From a virus: 23,101 bases of DNA. The stretch spans positions 1 to 23,101 of IMG/VR virus record IMGVR_UViG_3300044798_000377; one strand, written 5' to 3'. Below the pieces are notes generated by a model. The model saw only the letters and a program-made list of their open reading frames with translations. It did no database searches and was not told where the DNA came from. The position numbers and the translations under genes are program-made. How positions within the stretch are numbered: the stretch's first letter is position 1; each line of letters begins with the position of its first letter. This document shows, piece by piece, positions 3,290 through 22,940 of this stretch.

Positions 3290-6200
3290 ATGATGGACGA
3301 AGCCCTAAAAATTTCAATCCAGTTGGAGGATGCGGTCTCCACTGCGTTGGGTAATATCCAAATTAGGGCAGACGCTGCCCTAGGAAAGATCAATGAACTT
3401 AAGAAAGCAGTTGCAAGCTTCTCCTCTTCAGCGGTAAGCCAGACACAACAAGTTGTTCAACAAATTACCAATATAGGAAAAAGTGCTGTCAGCAATGCTT
3501 CAACTGTAAAATCTGCTGGCACAACTATGACCAGCAGTTATGAGAATATTGCAAAAAGATTACGAGAAGTAAATGATGAGATGTTGGAGTATGATGACCT
3601 GGCTTACCAGCAAACCACTAAAATTAATCATCTTATTAAATTGGAAAATGAACGCCAGGACTTGATGGTCAAGGTTGCCAAGTTCCAAAAAGATACTGGC
3701 AGTAAAGATAAAGATATCAACAAAGAAATTAAGGAATTTGAGGAATTACATGCAACTGACTTGAAGAGAAGAGAGAAATTGCTTAAGGATATTTCAGAGG
3801 TCTCAAAAGAATTGGGGGCTTATTACACCACCAATGCTACTTTGATGCAACTGAATGAAGAGCAGTTGGCTGCTATGGGTGAGGATAAGGTTAAGCAACT
3901 TAAGAAATTAATTGAGTTAGAAATTATCAAGGCTAAAATTGAGAATAACCCAGAGAGGGTTAGGCTATATAGGGACAATCTTGATAAACTTGGTGAAGCC
4001 GCTAAGAAGAATACTGCTGCACTTGGACCCTTGGCGTCTGTTCAAACCAAGGTTAGAGATGGTATTGGTGGATTAATATTTGGTACTACAAAATGGCAAA
4101 GCATTATAAATGACACAACACCAATTATTGGCAATATGACAATGCTGGGTGCTCTTAGTGCTGCTGTTGCTACTTTAGGTACGGCATTAGTACAGGCTGC
4201 TGCTAGGGCTGAAAAATTTCATACTGCTATGTTCCGTGGTCTTGGAACTATGGATCAGATTGCTGCAAAATCAGCAGATATGTCTATTAGGTATAATATG
4301 CTAGGGACGGAGATAGATGACACCATTACTGGTTTGAGGAATGTTGGTGCTTCAGCTAGCACTATTGATGAGGTTACCAACCATGTTTCAGCTTTGGTTA
4401 GGACTACCGGCGTTGGAGTTGAAGATGCTGCTAGGTTGGCTGTTAGGATTAAGGCCGTGGGAGGAAGTGCCAAGGAAGCGCAAGGTTATCTGATGTTCAT
4501 GTATGAAGCTGCTAAACAGTTTAATTTGAATGCTCAAGATTTAGGTGAAATAATGGATAAGGTTGTTGATTCTTCATTTAGACTAGCTTATCAAGGAATA
4601 GATGCTTCCAAAAAGTTCGCTGAGAACCTTACGAGTGCTGCTGCGGCAGCAAAAGAATTGGGTGTTAAAGGTGATATGCTTGAATCAATGTTCGAAAATA
4701 TGACTTATGATGTTCATGCTTGGGCTGGTATATTTAAAGGGGCAACTATGACCATGACAACCGAGCAAAAGCGTGTTAAGTTATTGTCTCAGGCTGTTGC
4801 CTGGGAAAAAGAAATGGCTGGCTATGCCACAAAGGGCGATGAGAGCAATATGAGAAGGCTTCGTTTCCAAATAGAAGGAATATCTCAAGGACAAGTACAA
4901 GTAAGAGATGTTGATAAATTTCTTCAATTGGCGGTAAAAATAACAGAAAAGGAAAAACAGAGAGTTGCTGCCAATCTTTCTATTAATAAAGCAATGGAAC
5001 AAACAGAGGCAATATTGAAAGCCGCTAGAACTGAATCAACAGGTGCTGTTCGTGCTTTTGAAGAAATGATGCAGACTTTATGGAATGGACTGCAAATAGC
5101 AGTAATGCCTTTGATGGTTATATTCAAGACAATTTTTACCCTTATTACAGGAATATTTAAAACAATTTATATGGCAATAGCTCCTTTGCTTAAAGTGGTG
5201 CAAACAATTGCTGGATGGCTTGATTTTAGTGAGCAACTTAGTGATGTATTTACAGCAATTGGAACTATTTTTGGTGGGATTGTTAAAGCACTGACACCTA
5301 TTATTACTATCATTGGAGGAATTTGGCTGGCTACAAATTATTGGTGGTTGTTATTAATACCAGTTGTCAAAATATTTAGCGATGTGTTAATACCAGTTTT
5401 AAATGTTATTGCTGGTGTTTTCGGTTTTATTGGTGATTTGGTGTTTGGAGTTGTTGAAGACATTAAAGAACTTATCTCCTGGTTTGCTGGTTGGATTACA
5501 TCATATAAATCAATTAATGAAGCTTTAAAAACGGTGAGTGGCTGGATGAAAGTGATAAGAGAGGTAGCTAGTGATGTTAGCAAGGTATTTATGAAGCTTG
5601 GTGGAGAGTGGGAGAATGTCAAGAAAGATCTTCCCCCTGTTTATTATGGTCTTAAAGCCATATTAGGGGTGGTTATGGCCATTGTTGCTGCTAAGTTATG
5701 GCAAAGTTGGGGTGGTGGAATAAAAGGAATGTTGCCATTACTCGGCGGTGTGAAGGATAGAGTATTAGGTGTAGGCGGCGCTTTATTGAAGGGAAACTTA
5801 GGCACAGCTATTTTTGGGAAAGCAAAAGAATCAATTGCAGATAAGATGGGAACTTGCACTAAAATTTGCCCAGATTCAGCCACAGCAATATCTAAAGACA
5901 TAAATGAAACTTTAATAGATAAATCCAAAACAACTGAATCAGCACTGGAAGGGGAAAAGAAAGCTGCGACAACTATAACCAAAGAAACAACAAAACAGGC
6001 AATAACAACTAATGGCGCAATTACTGCAACTCAAAATCTTTCTAGTAAGTTTAAGCTTACCACCGATCATGTTGCGAAATTTGGTAAAGTCTTAATGGGT
6101 GCCGGTGTTGCTTTGGGTGCGGCTGGTTTTATCGCTAGTACGATAGCGGAAAAGACAGGACATCCAGAAGCTGCTGCGGCAATAAGTTTTTGGGCGGATA

Positions 6201-7135
6201 TTGGTATGGCAGTTGCTTCAATTACTGGATTTTTAATGCAATTCAAATTCGTGCAGGGCTTGGTTGTAAGAGCTGGGCAAAGTTTGGTCACAACTTTTAC
6301 CAGATTTGCGTTGCCGGTGCTTACACGTTTTATACCAACTGTGGTTTCTTGGGTTGCGAGCTTGGCGACTGCCGCTGGAGCCATTGCCGCACTGACTGTC
6401 GCTATTACTGTTTTAGGGGCGGCTGTGATTGCTTACACTGGATACAAGGCTGTTCAAGCACTTAAAGCCTGGTGGGAGGCTGATGAAGCCGTTAAAAATG
6501 CTCAAAGAATGAAGGAAAGGAGAGTAAGTGAAGGTTTACTTAAGGACAATATAGAAAAGGCCAAATTGGAGGGATTAGATAAAGCAGTTAGGTGGGAAGG
6601 GGAAAGAGGCAATATTAAGAGGGCAACAGAACTTGAGAAACAATATAATAAGTTAATATTAGAAAGAAGTGAAAGACAACAAAAAGAATCAAAGTTATCA
6701 CCAGTCAATGTTGCAATTAGCAATATAAAAGTGGAACAAACACAATGGAAATTAACGGCTGCTCAAGCGCAAGAGCAGGCATATAGGGATGCTAGACAAC
6801 AAGGGATGACTGCACAAAAAGCTACAGAATTTGCACAGGCTCTAGACACTGGTGTTCAGGTACAAGAAACATATCAAAAGAGCATCTCAAAAGCCAAGAT
6901 AGATCCAATAATCACTGGACCAACAAAAGAAGAAAAAACAAAACGTGGAGATAATATTAGTACTTTAATAGAAGTAGAGGAACAGGGCAATAAAGATTTA
7001 AGTAAGTTGGTTCAGTTGTTAGATAAGTTTTCCAAAGACAAATCATTACTTGAGATGCTTCGCTCCACCTTACCAGAATTAACAGATAATACCAACGCAT
7101 CGGGTTTGGCGTCTCTTGCAAACCAATGGGGCTAG
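3290..7135 (+). CDS. Tail tape measure protein
   Basis: At 1281 residues this is the longest gene in the window. It has the usual tape-measure build: a charged N-terminus rich in predicted coiled coil (roughly residues 80-245, many Lys/Glu heptads), Ala/Gly-rich helices, and several hydrophobic blocks. The blocks are near residues 280-305, 605-640 (VIFKTIFTLITGIFKTIY), 655-720, 965-990 and 1015-1050 (TAAGAIAALTVAITVLGAAV). The C-terminus is again helical and charged. In the family this protein sets tail length, fills the tube and is ejected, with hydrophobic parts entering the host membrane. The start is ATG at 3290 or the adjacent ATG at 3293; GGAG lies 11 bases upstream. Two cysteines close together near residue 862 (GTCTKICPDS) are unusual. 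No peptidase or lysozyme motif was seen. Confidence 0.85.
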   Translation: MMDEALKISIQLEDAVSTALGNIQIRADAALGKINELKKAVASFSSSAVSQTQQVVQQITNIGKSAVSNASTVKSAGTTMTSSYENIAKRLREVNDEMLEYDDLAYQQTTKINHLIKLENERQDLMVKVAKFQKDTGSKDKDINKEIKEFEELHATDLKRREKLLKDISEVSKELGAYYTTNATLMQLNEEQLAAMGEDKVKQLKKLIELEIIKAKIENNPERVRLYRDNLDKLGEAAKKNTAALGPLASVQTKVRDGIGGLIFGTTKWQSIINDTTPIIGNMTMLGALSAAVATLGTALVQAAARAEKFHTAMFRGLGTMDQIAAKSADMSIRYNMLGTEIDDTITGLRNVGASASTIDEVTNHVSALVRTTGVGVEDAARLAVRIKAVGGSAKEAQGYLMFMYEAAKQFNLNAQDLGEIMDKVVDSSFRLAYQGIDASKKFAENLTSAAAAAKELGVKGDMLESMFENMTYDVHAWAGIFKGATMTMTTEQKRVKLLSQAVAWEKEMAGYATKGDESNMRRLRFQIEGISQGQVQVRDVDKFLQLAVKITEKEKQRVAANLSINKAMEQTEAILKAARTESTGAVRAFEEMMQTLWNGLQIAVMPLMVIFKTIFTLITGIFKTIYMAIAPLLKVVQTIAGWLDFSEQLSDVFTAIGTIFGGIVKALTPIITIIGGIWLATNYWWLLLIPVVKIFSDVLIPVLNVIAGVFGFIGDLVFGVVEDIKELISWFAGWITSYKSINEALKTVSGWMKVIREVASDVSKVFMKLGGEWENVKKDLPPVYYGLKAILGVVMAIVAAKLWQSWGGGIKGMLPLLGGVKDRVLGVGGALLKGNLGTAIFGKAKESIADKMGTCTKICPDSATAISKDINETLIDKSKTTESALEGEKKAATTITKETTKQAITTNGAITATQNLSSKFKLTTDHVAKFGKVLMGAGVALGAAGFIASTIAEKTGHPEAAAAISFWADIGMAVASITGFLMQFKFVQGLVVRAGQSLVTTFTRFALPVLTRFIPTVVSWVASLATAAGAIAALTVAITVLGAAVIAYTGYKAVQALKAWWEADEAVKNAQRMKERRVSEGLLKDNIEKAKLEGLDKAVRWEGERGNIKRATELEKQYNKLILERSERQQKESKLSPVNVAISNIKVEQTQWKLTAAQAQEQAYRDARQQGMTAQKATEFAQALDTGVQVQETYQKSISKAKIDPIITGPTKEEKTKRGDNISTLIEVEEQGNKDLSKLVQLLDKFSKDKSLLEMLRSTLPELTDNTNASGLASLANQWG

Positions 7136-16357: not shown

Positions 16358-17521
16358 ATGAATACAAATAGACAAATTGAGTTGTCCAAGGAAATTTGTG
16401 ATCTGCATGCCACTGGTAAGTACAAAATCAGGGAAATTGCTGTTAAGATGGGTATCTCCTGGACCTATTTATGGGATATACTAAAGAAGCAACATATTAA
16501 ACTAGAAAACAACAGCTTATTGCATAAATTAGCAGGCTTCAAAACGAAAGAGGAATTCCTAAATAGAGTGCGGGAATTATACAACAAACCGCTAACTATT
16601 GAACAAGTGGCGGAAGAAATGAAAATAAATCATCGAGCTTTGCAAGCTCATATGCAAAGAAATGGATTTGAAGCAAGAGATGGATCAGAAGCAATAGGAG
16701 TATTGGCGACACAGAGAGACTTTGAATTAACAAAAGAAGAAACAGAAGTAATAAATGGCTTATTGCTTGGAGATGGACACATAGAATTCCAGAAAAGTAA
16801 ACATGTCTATGCTGCAAAGTTGGTTTATACCTGCAAACACAAATCAGTTTTAGAAGGTCTCGCAAAACAACTACAAAGACTAAAACCCAGGATTTTCTAC
16901 AAGACTTATAAATCAAAAGGTAAAGTTAGGCATGGTTATAGATTGGCAACGAATAAGTACAAGTTCTTATTGGAATTAAGACACAAATGGTATCCAAACG
17001 GAAAGAAAATCGTGCCAGAAGATTTAAAACTAACACCAGAGACTTGCTATTGGTGGTATTTGGGAGATGGAATGAGCGGAAACTCCCAAATATTCTGCAC
17101 TCACTCATTTACTATCGCTGAGGTTGACAGGTTGATTTCGATGTTGCCAGTACATGCTCGCAGGTATATGGTCATATGCAGGAAGACTGGTATTAAATCT
17201 TTCCCAACCATTGTTATTGGCCGTATTAATGATAGAATTGATTTTTTTGATTATATTGGCTCATGTAGACATGAAGTTTATGCTTATAAATGGATTTTAG
17301 GTTCGAACACAAAGAAAAGAACTATAGAAGAAGCAAAACAAAGAAGAGCAAAAGGATTATATATTTTCGGCAAAGATAGTTTGGAAGTTGGGAGAACAAC
17401 AGAAAAGGAGGTGCTCTTTGTCGCAACCGTTAAATCAGTCGATCTCGGTGATGTATCGTCTTCGCCTTGTGCGCGAAAATCAGCGCCATACGAGTGTCAA
17501 GCACTTGACGACACCGTTTGA
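16358..17521 (+). CDS. LAGLIDADG homing endonuclease with N-terminal HTH units
   Basis: The ORF has 387 residues. Residues ~8-47 and ~65-103 look like two helix-turn-helix units (IREIAVKMGISWTYLWDIL; TIEQVAEEMKINHRALQAHM). The first catalytic LAGLIDADG helix is INGLLLGDGH (132-141) and the second is YWWYLGDG (231-238). The intervening WYPNGKKIVPEDLKLT is characteristic of the LAGLIDADG_2 type. Both motif aspartates are present, so it should be active. Such enzymes cut an intron/intein-less or empty target and copy themselves in. Here it appears freestanding between genes, with no obvious intron around it. Its last 104 bases overlap the next gene in another frame, so the true C-terminus may be accidental read-on. 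Confidence 0.88.
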   Translation: MNTNRQIELSKEICDLHATGKYKIREIAVKMGISWTYLWDILKKQHIKLENNSLLHKLAGFKTKEEFLNRVRELYNKPLTIEQVAEEMKINHRALQAHMQRNGFEARDGSEAIGVLATQRDFELTKEETEVINGLLLGDGHIEFQKSKHVYAAKLVYTCKHKSVLEGLAKQLQRLKPRIFYKTYKSKGKVRHGYRLATNKYKFLLELRHKWYPNGKKIVPEDLKLTPETCYWWYLGDGMSGNSQIFCTHSFTIAEVDRLISMLPVHARRYMVICRKTGIKSFPTIVIGRINDRIDFFDYIGSCRHEVYAYKWILGSNTKKRTIEEAKQRRAKGLYIFGKDSLEVGRTTEKEVLFVATVKSVDLGDVSSSPCARKSAPYECQALDDTV

Positions 17522-18683: not shown

Positions 18684-18983
18684 TTAACTTGTTTCCCTTT
18701 TTATCTCTTTCCTCACTCCAATTAAGTTCAAGCTTTCACCTGTCAACTTAAACAAAACAGCATTGACCAAATCAAGAGCGCCAATGGTGCCAACTTCGTT
18801 TTTATCCATAGGTGCCCATGAAGGAATCATTGGGTACTCTCCTAATTCTTTAGTACAAGGAATTCTATTAGCAATAGTGAGGCGCATGGCCGTAGGATCG
18901 GCCTTATAAGCTTCATTGAACAATATTTCTTCTACTAAAAGCCTATTCATAATTTTCTCTGCTCCAATGTTGTGTGCACCCAT
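18684..18983 (-). CDS. Hypothetical protein, likely frameshifted near its 3' end
   Basis: The ORF has 99 residues from ATG 18983, with AAGAGGA eight bases upstream. It has helices around LLVEEILFNEAYKADPTAM and ALDLVNAVLFKLTGE. After the Gly-Glu the annotated frame ends oddly (SLNLIGVRKEIKRETS). The frame one base back reads KLELNWSEERDKKGN and goes on to QFPPTVIKQPCLPNC, stopping at 18608-18610 right before the SD of the 34-residue gene. A single base missing from an A-run near 18733-18736 would unite both into a protein of about 125 residues. This may be a sequencing error, a real mutation or, less likely, programmed shifting. Family unknown. Confidence 0.6.
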   Translation of the reverse strand: MGAHNIGAEKIMNRLLVEEILFNEAYKADPTAMRLTIANRIPCTKELGEYPMIPSWAPMDKNEVGTIGALDLVNAVLFKLTGESLNLIGVRKEIKRETS

Positions 18984-19077
18984 CTTTTGGTCCTCTTAAG
19001 TTAAATACTCAAAAATAAGTAGAGGAAGGATTGGTGGAATTATAGCTATTATTGGACCCTCACAACTCCCAGCAGTA

Positions 19078-19761
19078 TTGCGTCTAAACCAAGGCGCAAA
19101 CGATGCATTGAAAATGCAGGCTCTATCAACTCTAGGCCACCCCGTGGTGATGGTGGAATTAACTGAGCCACAACTAGAACAAGCAATAAGTATAACGGGG
19201 TCATTCATATCGCAATTCTATCCGTCAGAACATCAATATGCTTACTTCTACACTAACCCCTTGCAATCAACTTATCCCCTGCCACCAGATGCCTATTGGG
19301 TACAAGATGTGAAGTGGGATCCCGCTACGACGAGGATAGGGGATATATTCTCATCCGAGAGTTTCCTCTTCTGCTTTCCTGGTGGAACACAAATTCTTAC
19401 TGTTAAGGGGCCAATGATTTGTGAGGATTTATGCAAGAAGTTTGAAGATGTGAAAGTTAGAACTGCTTTCAGACCACATAAAGTTAGGATGCGTTGGAAT
19501 GAGAGAAAGCAACAAATAACTATCCTAAAAACAAAAAATGATTTCTTGATGTGCACTCCAAATCATCCAATAAATTGCAATAATAAATTCATACCAGCAG
19601 AAGCTTGCAAACTGGGAGATAAGTTGCTTAGCAGTAAAGATAAATTATGTGAAGTTATCGATAAATCAGCAAACCACACCATGGGAACTTGGTCAATTCA
19701 GAATAAGACTGGGAGCCAATATATAAGTGCGGCAGGAAAGGAATTCTATCTGACACATTAA
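19078..19761 (+). CDS. N-terminal half of a phage structural protein joined to a mini-intein
   Basis: From TTG 19078 the ORF encodes 227 residues. The first 98 are extein: they read like a neck or head-tail connector family protein (VELTEPQLEQAISITGSF... YFYTNPLQSTYPLPPDAYWV... IGDIFSSESFLF). The reading frame is open back to 19000, and a natural-looking N-terminus (AIIGPSQLPAVLRL) lies at 19042-19077, but that region has no ATG, GTG or TTG; an ATA at 19042 with GGTGG upstream is a candidate start. From residue 99 the sequence is an intein (see separate entry), which ends at the stop, so no C-extein is encoded here. The C-terminal partner seems to be at the end of the 22278 ORF. The role in the virion is inferred only. 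Confidence 0.7.
   Translation: MRLNQGANDALKMQALSTLGHPVVMVELTEPQLEQAISITGSFISQFYPSEHQYAYFYTNPLQSTYPLPPDAYWVQDVKWDPATTRIGDIFSSESFLFCFPGGTQILTVKGPMICEDLCKKFEDVKVRTAFRPHKVRMRWNERKQQITILKTKNDFLMCTPNHPINCNNKFIPAEACKLGDKLLSSKDKLCEVIDKSANHTMGTWSIQNKTGSQYISAAGKEFYLTH
19372..19758 (+). mobile_element. Mini-intein lacking its terminal Asn
   Basis: The 129-residue intein begins with Cys at 19372 (CFPGGTQILTVKG, block A). Block B is LMCTPNHPINC with Thr62 and His65, followed by FIPAEACKLGDKL. The C-terminal block F/G is recognisable in TWSIQNKTG, then QYISAAGKEFYLTH. A functional intein would end in His-Asn followed by Cys/Ser/Thr; here His is followed directly by TAA (19759-19761). No endonuclease domain lies inside, so it is of minimal size. 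Without Asn cyclisation, C-terminal cleavage and splicing should fail, though Cys1-dependent N-terminal cleavage could still occur. Confidence 0.8.
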
Positions 19762-19763
19762 CT

Positions 19764-20057
19764 ATGAAATCTAATCTTGAGCACAAATATGAAGCTTATT
19801 TAAAAAACAATAAAACAGTTAAGTTATATGAACATCGGAAGCAATATATCATCTATGTAGATGGCTTTACAGGAAAGGAGCACAAATATTACACTTCATT
19901 TAGGATAGAATTTGTTGATGGACATATTGAACATGTGGAAGTGAAACCACTGGAAAAACAATTTTATTGCGATAAATATCTCTATGCAGAAAATGTTCTT
20001 CCAGGGTGGCGCTGGATAACAAAAGAAGAATTGGCGATATGCTCCGAACTGATTTAG
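19764..20057 (+). CDS. Small PD-(D/E)xK nuclease-like protein, Asp position changed
   Basis: The product has 97 residues and starts two bases after the intein stop. It has the compact order seen in VSR/TnsA/T7-endonuclease-like small nucleases: an N-terminal helix with Glu (LEHKYEAYLKNN), a strand with YEHRKQYIIYVDG, then KYYTSFRIEFVDGHIEHVEVKPLEK. The E-x-K pair is present (VEVKP). However, the strand that normally carries the catalytic Asp (YPDF) reads YTSF, so activity is doubtful. The C-terminus (NVLPGWRWITKEEL) is also typical of this group. Standing next to an intein recalls the described 'fractured gene' arrangements, where a split intein flanks a freestanding VSR-like endonuclease. 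Alternatives are a head-completion nuclease-like protein. Confidence 0.65.
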   Translation: MKSNLEHKYEAYLKNNKTVKLYEHRKQYIIYVDGFTGKEHKYYTSFRIEFVDGHIEHVEVKPLEKQFYCDKYLYAENVLPGWRWITKEELAICSELI

Positions 20058-20095
20058 ATGAACATGTAAAGCGTAGTTCTTCCTTTTGGCTTTTC

Positions 20096-21358
20096 CTAAG
20101 GCTTAATTACCCCTATAACATCAACCTTTTGAATTGTCTGCGTATCACCGTTTTCGTCCTTTATGACATATGCATCATCTGCTTCAACGATTATTTTTAT
20201 AGCCTTAATTTCCTTGCCATCGCGCATATTAAAGAGAATTACCTTGATTAAGGAAAGTCTTGAGACTGATTCAACTTTCAATTTGTCCTGAACTGCAGGA
20301 ACGTTAGGTAGTGGGAATTGTTCGCCAATTGCGTGTATGAGGGCATCCGCTCGGCGGATTTCATCTGCCGACATTTCCAAATTGGCATCACTCTGACTTC
20401 GTTTTCTTATCCGTGCCGTATCCTGCAATATCAAATTCGCCACATCCCTTGGACTTTGGGTCAAGTCTATTTCTAAAGATTTTACTTGTGCGGCAATCGT
20501 CTTCCTATCGAGGCCCATTCCCTCAATCTTCCTTATTTGAGGTGCTAAATATGCAACTGTCCGCTGGGCTGAATCAAGCCTTTGCAATATATCGTCTCTA
20601 TCTGCGATAGCGTTATGCTGGCTTGAAACGGAATCTGTAGCTTCTTTGGCGGCTGAATTCCTCTTGAGATTTGCCGTTGCTATCTCCTGGGAGTGGTCAT
20701 ATCTTAATGTACTGGAACCACTGGCAGCAACGACCCTACCATGGGTCGTAATAAGGTCTTGAACCACCTTATTTTGTTCGGCAATCTTCCGGTTGGCCCC
20801 ATCGATCCTTTGGGCAAACCCTCTTACCCGGTTTTCAGCACTGGCGAGTTCCTCAGAAAGGTCCTTAACTACCCTCAGAGTGAGGTCATATTCGTTAAAC
20901 ATTCTTGCTATTGTTTCAACAAGCGCTTTTCTGTCCCTATAGGCGTCTTTCGTCTGGTTAGATAGACGCCGTTCTTCATCGGCTTTTTGCTGTGCAAGAA
21001 TCCTGGCTTGGTTTTCTGCTTCGGCTTTCGCTTGGTTTTCTGCTTCTCTATCTAATTTGTCTTGACGCTCTCTAGCTAGTTTGGCCTGCTGGTCTTGCCG
21101 GTTCTTTTCTAATTGATTTTTCCGCTCTTCGGCCTCGCGCCGTACTTTCTCTACGTGCTCTTCTCTCTCGGCTGCCAGTGCCTCGGCTCTCTCGGCTTCT
21201 TCCTTATGTCTGGCAACCTGTTCCTGTCTGGCGCGAAAGGCTTCCCTCATTTGCTGCTTTTCATATTCATCATATTTATGCCAGGCGAAATATCCAATTA
21301 TAAGGAACACGATAAGAAAAATAATTGCCGTGAAATTGAACAGCCACAAGCCTCTCAT
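20096..21358 (-). CDS. Membrane-anchored coiled-coil protein
   Basis: The product has 420 residues from ATG 21358, with GGAGGAGG six bases upstream. Residues 3-27 form a membrane span (LWLFNFTAIIFLIVFLIIGYF). Residues ~35-140 are continuous charged coiled coil with many EA, ER, KAE repeats. A second helical region spans ~140-270. The C-terminal ~80 residues look globular with strands (IKAIKIIVEADDAYVIKDENGD). The DNA is clearly GC-richer than its neighbours (a sample line has 37 G/C in 60), which points to separate origin. It is encoded against the interrupted structural gene, between its two halves. Function is unknown; a membrane-tethered stalk, as in superinfection exclusion or envelope-linked proteins, is a possibility only. 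Confidence 0.75.
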   Translation of the reverse strand: MRGLWLFNFTAIIFLIVFLIIGYFAWHKYDEYEKQQMREAFRARQEQVARHKEEAERAEALAAEREEHVEKVRREAEERKNQLEKNRQDQQAKLARERQDKLDREAENQAKAEAENQARILAQQKADEERRLSNQTKDAYRDRKALVETIARMFNEYDLTLRVVKDLSEELASAENRVRGFAQRIDGANRKIAEQNKVVQDLITTHGRVVAASGSSTLRYDHSQEIATANLKRNSAAKEATDSVSSQHNAIADRDDILQRLDSAQRTVAYLAPQIRKIEGMGLDRKTIAAQVKSLEIDLTQSPRDVANLILQDTARIRKRSQSDANLEMSADEIRRADALIHAIGEQFPLPNVPAVQDKLKVESVSRLSLIKVILFNMRDGKEIKAIKIIVEADDAYVIKDENGDTQTIQKVDVIGVIKP

Positions 21359-21418
21359 AAGCACCCTCCTCCCCTTTATATTATCATAGGGAAGGACTTA
21401 GTAAAGTATTTTACTCTG

Positions 21419-21574
21419 ATGACCCTTCTTGAATTCATAGTTCTTCGGGACCCCAGGCTTCCACAACTCCTTGAGCATCTGGGAGAGGAGAGGGAAGAAT
21501 TACTCAAAATCTCTCAACTTAATAGGCTTGACCTCCTTGAAGACATTATAAATACTGGAAAAAGAATAAAATAG
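21419..21574 (+). CDS. Small hypothetical protein
   Basis: A 51-residue ORF (MTLLEFIVLRDPRLPQLLEH...) is dominated by Leu/Glu/Arg helix (EEREELLKISQLNRLDLLED). Coding character is good, but no SD stands at a usual distance from the ATG (GGAAGGA is about 20 bases away); the frame is open upstream, so another start is possible. It lies between the minus-strand coiled-coil gene and a metallopeptidase gene fragment. No family recognised. Confidence 0.45.
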   Translation: MTLLEFIVLRDPRLPQLLEHLGEEREELLKISQLNRLDLLEDIINTGKRIK

Positions 21575-21592
21575 TTATACGAGGACTTCATT

Positions 21593-21658
21593 ATGAAGAC
21601 TATGGAAGATGTTGAGCATGACCTGAAGGCATTACCGGATGCGCAAGTTTTAATTTAG
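21593..21658 (+). pseudogene. 5' fragment of the metallopeptidase-like gene
   Basis: A 21-codon ORF (MKTMEDVEHDLKALPDAQVL) begins with GAGG eight bases before the ATG and stops at 21656. Its last codons (TTA ATT) can be joined across a 616-base interval to ATT AAT AGT ATG at 22269-22280, producing a continuous frame into the HExxH ORF. I read it as the original start of that gene, cut off by an insertion. Confidence 0.5.
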
Positions 21659-22271
21659 CAATAATTCTTTCTCTAATTTCTTCATCTTACCACATCTTTT
21701 CTGATCTAATTACTTGCATTTCTGGTTTATTGGCTGCTATTTTAGTTGCTTCTTGTTGTGGACGAACACGGATACCAAATTTTTGTAATGTGCTATGAAT
21801 GGTGCCTTCATCAGCGTGTAGAATGCTGGCTAATTCGGCAATGCTTTTCTCTTGGTTGACATATAGTTCATATAAATTCTCATAAGTGTCCCATTTTCTA
21901 GTTGCCTGAAACATATTTAATAATTTGCTGGTAATATCAGAGTGATTAGATCGTAAGTTTAATCGTTTATATATTCTTTTAATTATTATTTCACTAGCTA
22001 TATGAAACGTTTGCATTAATTCTTTTGTTGTGTGGCCTGACTGATGTAAAGTAATAAAGAGATTTTCATCTACTTTAGTGGATACACCAGCGTTTTGAGA
22101 TCTAGTGGTTTGGTCTTTTCTGATTAATACTCCTAATTTTAATAATTTCTTTTTCAAAGTGATTTTAGAGGTGTTGTATTCTAGTGCTAGTTGTCGAAGT
22201 GATAGACCACTTAGATATTTCTGTTTCAACTCTTCTAAGTTGATGTTGACTAAACATTTCTTTTCAAAATT
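21656..22271 (-). mobile_element. Inferred homing-element remnant inserted in a metallopeptidase gene
   Basis: The interval has ATT at both proposed ends (21653-21655 and 22269-22271). Removing one ATT plus the interval restores an open frame from the 21593 start into the 22278 ORF. It carries only the minus-strand helix-turn-helix ORF. Ends are inferred from frame restoration alone and could be off by a few bases. Confidence 0.45.
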
Positions 22272-22391
22272 AATAGTATGAAAATTGTTTTGCTGCCTTT
22301 GCATATTCATGGTGCCGCTGACTTGAGTGATGGCACCATCTACTTGTCTAGTGATCTTAGTTTCCTGGGGTTGATTAATTCTTTCTTCCAT
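21687..22391 (-). CDS. Helix-turn-helix array protein, homing-endonuclease remnant
   Basis: The ORF is 234 residues from ATG 22391, chosen because AGGAGGTG lies nine bases before it; ATGs at 22310 and 22304 lack an SD. The first ~38 residues are read opposite the HExxH ORF. Three helix-turn-helix units then follow: LSLRQLALEYNTSKITLKKKL, HTTKELMQTFHIASEIIIKRI, and KSIAELASILHADEGTIHSTL. They resemble the N-terminal units of the endonuclease at 16358. No nuclease motif is present. After the TAA at 21687-21689 the same frame continues as DEEIRERIIAKLK, like the helical repeats in HNH-type homing enzymes, so the C-terminus seems cut by a nonsense change and a deletion. Probably a decayed DNA-binding part of a homing endonuclease. 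Confidence 0.6.
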   Translation of the reverse strand: MEERINQPQETKITRQVDGAITQVSGTMNMQRQQNNFHTINFEKKCLVNINLEELKQKYLSGLSLRQLALEYNTSKITLKKKLLKLGVLIRKDQTTRSQNAGVSTKVDENLFITLHQSGHTTKELMQTFHIASEIIIKRIYKRLNLRSNHSDITSKLLNMFQATRKWDTYENLYELYVNQEKSIAELASILHADEGTIHSTLQKFGIRVRPQQEATKIAANKPEMQVIRSEKMW

Positions 22392-22940
22392 GAGTTTGGA
22401 CACCTCCTGTGTGGGAACCCGGATCACGATAAACGGTGGTTTGCACGATGCAAAGACCTCTATCCTTCCTTCTTAAATACATTTGATGTAGGTAATATAA
22501 ACGTTGGTAATATTGCTGGGAATGTGGGAAACATAACGGGGGTACAGAATTTGCTCACGGATTACCACTTACTTCAAAGCTATAGGAAGTTTTCACAACG
22601 CATTTTGGCCACTGAAGGTCAATGGGAGATTGGTGGGGACCAGAAAATACGCCTTTACCCAGTTCCTAGGGGAGCATTTCCTGTCGTTGTACAATACCTT
22701 CCTGTTGTTTCTCGTTTTAAAACTCCTGAGGCTGCAGAAATAGCAAAGAGAATGCTTGTAGCCGAATGTAAGATTATGCTTGGAAATATTCGAAGTAAAT
22801 TTTCTTCGTTGCCGACACCTGATGGTGGATCATTAACCATGAATGGTAATGAGCTTCGGACCGAAGGCAACGAAGAAAAGAAACAATGTATCTTAGATGC
22901 CATCAGTTATGGAAAGCCCTTGCCAATAATATTATGGTGA
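22278..22940 (+). CDS. HExxH metallopeptidase-like domain fused to the C-terminal half of a structural protein
   Basis: The ORF has 220 residues. Residues 1-67 look like a small zinc metallopeptidase domain: a strand (GTIYLSSDLS), a helix with the HExxH motif (FFHEFGHLLCG, His and Glu present), then HDKRWFARCKDLY, which could supply a third ligand. From about residue 73 the sequence changes to NINVGNIAGNVGNITGVQNL, then LTDYHLLQSYRKFSQRILATEG, KIRLYPVPRGAFPVVVQYLP, and a helical end. This second part looks like the missing partner of the extein at 19078. The ATG at 22278 has no SD and the domain's natural start seems to be at 21593, so expression is uncertain. The fusion point lies near YPSFLNTFDVGN. 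Confidence 0.65.
   Translation: MKIVLLPLHIHGAADLSDGTIYLSSDLSFLGLINSFFHEFGHLLCGNPDHDKRWFARCKDLYPSFLNTFDVGNINVGNIAGNVGNITGVQNLLTDYHLLQSYRKFSQRILATEGQWEIGGDQKIRLYPVPRGAFPVVVQYLPVVSRFKTPEAAEIAKRMLVAECKIMLGNIRSKFSSLPTPDGGSLTMNGNELRTEGNEEKKQCILDAISYGKPLPIILW

Follow-up and report, generated by a model that had tools for sequence, protein, structure and literature searches.

The viral DNA considered here (the window) is the whole of an IMG/VR record, IMGVR_UViG_3300044798_000377, a 23.1-kb fragment (23,101 nucleotides) with tail and baseplate genes. Within it we see a gene for a neck protein resembling gp13 of phage T4, broken into two open reading frames (ORFs): ORF1 (19042/19078–19761) encodes the front of the protein followed by a Hint domain, and ORF3 (22278–22940) a peptidase-like domain followed by the remainder. 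The identical bond is broken in ~15 distinct phage loci, with no extein residue lost in any of them. We propose that the gp13-like neck gene of large phages harbours a conserved and mobile fractured-gene system, in which the neck halves would be ligated in trans, and put the probability of this reading at slightly over one half (~0.52). The layout of the loci, the exact junction, the conserved motifs, the purifying selection and the exchange of modules can all be read directly from the sequences compared below.

Two halves of one neck protein

Both ORFs match one protein family, head-tail adaptor Ad2 (phrog_211), the two matches following each other along the profile (positions 727–790 and 843–954) and each being weak alone. 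In more than 60 related phage records, found in scans of viral contigs, the two parts occupy a single ORF, mostly of 245–260 amino acids (aa), and meet with zero gap at a junction of the form ESFLF|N[IV]GN; the halves from the window align on opposite sides of it. The closest intact homologue, L013, whose ORF spans both parts, is 67% identical to the window in the N-part and 71% in the C-part; an AlphaFold2 model of this protein, made with a 50-sequence alignment (pLDDT 68), has as its best Foldseek match T4 gp13 in the portal-neck-tail complex (PDB: 9mkb; E 9e-10). Given the shared phrog_211 family, the intact one-ORF relatives and this fold match, ORF1 and ORF3 are the halves of one T4 gp13-like neck protein; the original prediction, made from the sequence of the window alone, had likewise described one structural gene broken at an intein, with the second part fitting the rest of the same protein.

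The N-half (N-extein) occupies 19042–19371 on the plus strand, ends in ESFLF and is 52–73% identical to the N-part of intact relatives; the C-half (C-extein), at 22521–22940 on the same strand, begins NVGNITGVQNLL and is 50–71% identical to their C-part. A PDB sequence search with the C-extein gave nothing useful. These boundaries shift some of those first proposed: the 19078 ORF does encode the N-part of the neck protein, with homology placing its start at 19042 and making the TTG at 19078 internal, whilst in the 22278 ORF the C-extein begins with NVGN at residue 82 rather than at residue ~70–73. The halves had also been put 2.5–2.7 kb apart, a distance that holds for the ORFs (2.5 kb) but not for the exteins, the ends of which (19371 and 22521) enclose an insertion of 3149 bp. 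A search of six related fractured records, including one of 341 kb, turned up no second copy of the neck gene, an alternative raised at the outset; the window record itself is a 23-kb fragment only.

A Hint domain without its terminal Asn

In the window, the Hint domain (19372–19761, plus strand; 129 aa) opens with Cys1, contains TPNH and ends in YLTH, followed by TAA at the place of the terminal Asn; it is identified by alignments, by a PDB profile match to Hint domains over the full profile and by TIGR01445 (intein_Nterm; E 4.5e-4). Counts for ORF1 refer to 13 loci (the 12 ordered loci listed below plus L222) and those for ORF3 to 15. Across loci, a Hint domain of 128–134 aa directly follows ESFLF (EMFLF in L222); it begins with Cys1 (Ser1 in L016 and L017) and carries the block B motif TxNH in 13/13, and its C-terminal strand ends in LVH, LIH, LTH, LVK, LTK, LVS or VGH with a stop codon immediately after, again in 13/13. 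Because the profile match to the PDB Hint domain 8w20 covers positions 1–126 of 126, the VLVH of 8w20 included, the domain is, as judged by sequence, whole up to the penultimate position, the terminal Asn alone being missing. This accounts for the earlier failure to find a separate C-terminal intein piece, and a canonical piece of that kind can be ruled out; the break does lie where it had been placed, at the C-terminal end of the intein, with a stop codon standing in for the last residue.

In known inteins the C-terminal junction is cut by cyclisation of the terminal Asn and joining proceeds through a +1 nucleophile, BIL domains being an exception. Set against class 1 and split inteins, the domains described here have the N-terminal Cys or Ser and TxxH in 13/13, whereas the terminal Asn (or Gln/Asp) is absent in 13/13, a stop following the penultimate position, and residue +1 is Asn in place of Cys, Ser or Thr. 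Nor does the second chain carry a C-terminal intein fragment, ORF3 opening with its peptidase-like domain. With the terminal Asn missing and Asn at +1, canonical splicing, in trans or otherwise, is therefore not expected.

The same bond broken in ~15 loci

Twelve loci carry ORF1, a nuclease ORF and ORF3 in this order: L010, L011, L014, L016, L017, L019, L040, L041, L118, L121, L126 and the window, which is counted here though its nuclease is a remnant. In L074, L077/L081 and L211, ORF3 is present and ORF1 absent from the same stretch. The suggestion that intein, nuclease and peptidase form one system is borne out. All fractured (15/15) and all intact (50/50) sequences have Asn as residue +1, and the Phe and Asn that flank the break are invariant in 50 of 50 intact and 12 of 12 fractured ones. 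In our scans, which reached close relatives only, all confirmed matches to the Hint, peptidase or nuclease were fractured neck loci rather than other genes; additional Hint matches in the 341-kb and other records, located within long ORFs, could be inteins of the ordinary kind.

For L211, an ORF1 with a full Hint lies on L222, another contig of the same assembly. The neck halves (L211 4431–5096 and L222 2256–2981) each carry their processing domain, and the two contigs have near-equal G+C and common repeats up to 97% identical; should both derive from a single phage, the distance between the halves would be no less than ~6.7 kb however the contigs are arranged, as computed from the contig ends. 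L211 is filed under a Lokiarchaeota bin, possibly a binning error, phage contigs in such a bin probably being misplaced. ORF1 was not found anywhere in the 26.8-kb L081 record, where its expected place (1–2796), upstream of the gene for peptidase and C-half, holds a collagen-like repeat ORF and three more ORFs.

A metallopeptidase-like domain in front of the C-half

The front of ORF3 (22278–22520, plus strand) is a putative metallopeptidase domain of minigluzincin/WLM-like type, as motif, weak profile matches and the fold of a poor model suggest, with HEFGH at 22389–22403, a third His at 22425–22427 and a linker ending in IAG. A domain of this kind (~65–110 aa) always stands at the front of the second half, and the motif [H/D]ExxH...Hxxx[W/F] is found in 15/15, ExxH and the third His included. 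The variant DExxH, always with Asp, occurs in L010, L041, L121, L126, L081 and L211 and might reflect an unusual zinc ligand. PDB profile matches are to proabylysin (4jiu; 0.0016), selecase (4qhj; 0.017) and Wss1 (5xbn; 0.05), and a fold search with a poor model of ORF3 (pLDDT 54) returns proabylysin and selecase; among Pfam families, WLM is the one that members match most often (4/9), at weak scores (best 0.0013) that lie under the curated threshold so far as this was displayed. In Wss1, zinc is held by HExxH plus a third His, and in proabylysin the protein's own C-terminal tail occupies the active site (PMC5557861).

The spacer between motif and C-extein measures 25–33 residues and ends in hydrophobic-[AGS]-[AGS]|Asn in 14/15 loci, the exception being L074, with Leu in the last linker position. 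This hydrophobic-small-small|Asn boundary is the likely cleavage site, as its conservation suggests; in the window the predicted site reads Ile-Ala-Gly|Asn (22512–22523, plus strand), and the linker shows a near-repeat, VGNINVGNIAG adjoining NVGNITG.

Selection and exchange of modules

The gene usually found between the neck halves encodes a nuclease of a family with helix-turn-helix (HTH) domains and a TnsA-like PD-(D/E)xK domain (8/10 members by Pfam); no VSR assignment was obtained, and a PDB sequence search with the nuclease yielded no solved relative. For Hint, nuclease and peptidase, omega is 0.12–0.20 (L016/L017; L016/L118 for the peptidase), rough values in that most pairs are saturated at synonymous sites, only those not fully saturated were used and some of these have dS >1. 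By these estimates, Hint and peptidase are under purifying selection.

In pairwise identity the Hint tracks the nuclease (Spearman 0.82) and not the exteins (0.09), whilst the peptidase tracks the exteins (0.38); the p values of these correlations are a guide only, since the pairs are not independent, and this comparison used domain ends misplaced by 1 residue in L118 and by 3 in L121, the corrected ends being used in the trees. There, the Hints of L016, L017 and the window fall in one clade (100/100), the peptidases of L014, L016, L017, L019 and L118 in another (98/98.8), and a Hint clade of L016 with L118 is rejected (p 8e-54). As identity correlations and trees agree, Hint and nuclease are seen, at the level of sequence, to have been swapped between lineages independently of peptidase and exteins, moving as a cassette that now sits beside different peptidases.

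Proposed mechanism and alternatives

From these features we predict a Hint activity, a peptidase activity and a cut site, arranged as follows. The ORF1 product, N-half plus Hint, would undergo an acyl shift at Cys1/Ser1, as in the first step of an intein, and the Hint would keep ESFLF, with which the N-half ends, in the form of a reactive (thio)ester; with neither a terminal Asn nor a +1 Cys, Ser or Thr, it would be incapable of the usual C-terminal step. The ORF3 peptidase, fused to the C-half, would cut at hydrophobic-small-small|Asn and free the amine of Asn(+1); the fold of the halves themselves would bring them together, and attack of the amine so released on the (thio)ester would give a scarless neck protein in trans. 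We infer the (thio)ester on the N-half and the release of the C-half amine because the Hint chemistry is kept and the small|Asn boundary conserved. The HTH and PD-(D/E)xK nuclease between the halves presumably drives homing, in view of its position and family. For type A BIL domains, too, the proposed mechanism is attack of a freed C-terminal amine on an N-terminal thioester (PMC4031507).

Processing at both junctions appears quite probable and, given processing, ligation more likely than not. Whether the whole would amount to natural protein trans-splicing of a new, 'peptidase-assisted' class—pairing the (thio)ester of an Asn-less Hint with a fused metallopeptidase that frees the attacking amine—we regard as an even proposition; splicing would then be shared by two enzyme folds with no relation to each other, each evolving and recombining on its own. 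No paper linking an intein to a metallopeptidase was found among the open-access papers searched.

Several points weigh against ligation in trans by this route. The first zinc-binding His is replaced by Asp in 6/15 ORF3 domains (His in 9/15), and the similarity scores of the domain to known peptidases are weak; Hint and peptidase modules recombine freely, so that a specific contact between them is not implied; ligation would have to outpace hydrolysis of the (thio)ester; and in the window copy the start reads ATA and the nuclease is broken. In its support, the Hint is kept in 13/13 though a stop codon at Cys1 would yield the same N-half.

Ligation, as opposed to two processed chains, is the most speculative part of the scheme. 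The neck protein could instead function as two chains, as the original prediction also allowed: the Hint would hydrolyse itself off, the peptidase cut itself off and the halves assemble non-covalently, no peptide bond being made. Every processing feature fits this equally well, cleavage with no ensuing ligation is frequent among BIL and Hint domains (PMC4031507, PMC7765530), and the low-confidence segment 93–112 of the L013 model, at the junction, may be a loop. Retention of a full Hint is poorly explained, however, because a stop codon at its first residue, together with a later ORF3 start, would yield the same chains; yet Hint and peptidase are kept under purifying selection, and the Phe and Asn flanking the break stay invariant. 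We therefore hold two unjoined chains to be possible, if doubtful.

A further alternative is that the ORF3 domain is inactive as a peptidase, a structural partner or a passenger left on the C-half, and that the Hint alone acts. The Asp at the first zinc ligand and the weak similarity to known peptidases would suit such a role, but the Glu and the second and third His are invariant in 15/15 domains that are otherwise only 15–75% identical, the replacement of the first His is always Asp, and the hydrophobic-small-small|Asn boundary is conserved, all of which makes inactivity improbable. That the neck gene of this phage is merely a broken, non-functional intein locus, as the nuclease remnant, the foreign ORFs between the halves and the ATA start might suggest, is very improbable in the face of ~15 loci with the same layout (some on long contigs), a single neck copy where searched and purifying selection on Hint and peptidase; for the family, decay of a single locus, the other explanation first entertained, is already contradicted.

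The window copy and neighbouring genes

In the window, the start position (19042–19044) reads ATA where relatives have ATG, with a good Shine-Dalgarno sequence ahead (GAGGAAGG). The stretch between the neck halves holds foreign ORFs; Hint and peptidase appear intact, the only clearly decayed part being the nuclease, and this copy may be that of an element at a late stage, start at a rare codon or carry a sequencing error. The nuclease remnant (19764–20057, plus strand; 97 aa) lacks the HTH parts, has Ser for the catalytic Asp in the alignment and, at 47% identity to residues 210–297 of the L017 nuclease, corresponds to the core of the L016/L017 type.

Also within the gap, an ORF of HTH repeats (21687–22427, minus strand; true start probably near 22310) has relatives in the HTH portions of these nucleases and in an ORF next to the L137 neck gene. 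A coiled-coil ORF of 422 aa (20096–21364, minus strand), probably with a membrane helix at its N-terminus, has no relative in any fetched locus. Related genes for putative HTH/treble-clef-like endonucleases of 560–590 aa (L126 4827–6512, L222 496–2256, L211 ~6186–6980) adjoin intact as well as fractured neck genes. Just upstream of the window neck gene, a 99-aa ORF (18684–18983, minus strand) weakly matches phrog_21281 (unknown function), and among the tail genes stands a free-standing HTH and LAGLIDADG homing endonuclease (16358–17521, plus strand; PF03161, E 3e-20), with relatives in L080/L160.

Comparison with known systems

Found at an identical point in ~15 loci, this layout suggests that two protein chains are cut, and perhaps joined again, in a manner not previously described. 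If our reading is correct, the C-terminal cut has been handed to a separate metallopeptidase, which would widen the chemistry of protein splicing; the system would also illustrate how a virion gene can host a mobile element where the site offers no Cys, Ser or Thr, and would suggest that scarless ligation can proceed with no nucleophile at +1.

Like BIL domains, type A of which is proposed to ligate through a freed amine, the neck Hint has no +1 nucleophile. Type A, however, cuts its own C-terminus by His-Asn, whereas the neck Hint lacks the Asn in 13/13; type B is without block G similarity, whereas the neck Hint keeps the strand to the penultimate residue (LVH, LIH etc.), Asn absent; and BILs are found in variable bacterial proteins, the neck Hint in a conserved virion gene with a nuclease. 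With the minigluzincin, WLM and SprT-like metallopeptidases (proabylysin, selecase, Wss1), the ORF3 domain shares a minimal size, a third His and, in 9/15, a full HExxH; unlike them, it is fused to half a virion protein and paired with a Hint, and it differs in its Asp for the first His (6/15) and its weak scores. T4 gp13, similar in fold to the intact homologue, is a single uninterrupted chain.

Dassa et al. reportedly described, in 2009, fractured genes in which split inteins occur together with a free-standing endonuclease. In a described case, the PolB split intein of phage MIJ3, the end of the C-piece and the +1 residue read ILVHNS (PMC6892783). As in such genes, a phage gene is broken here at an intein-like domain, its halves are separate ORFs and a nuclease gene lies in the gap. 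In those genes, however, the split falls within the intein, the C-piece of which closes with His-Asn ahead of a +1 nucleophile, whereas the neck system has a whole, Asn-less Hint, Asn at +1 and, in place of the split-intein C-piece, a metallopeptidase domain.
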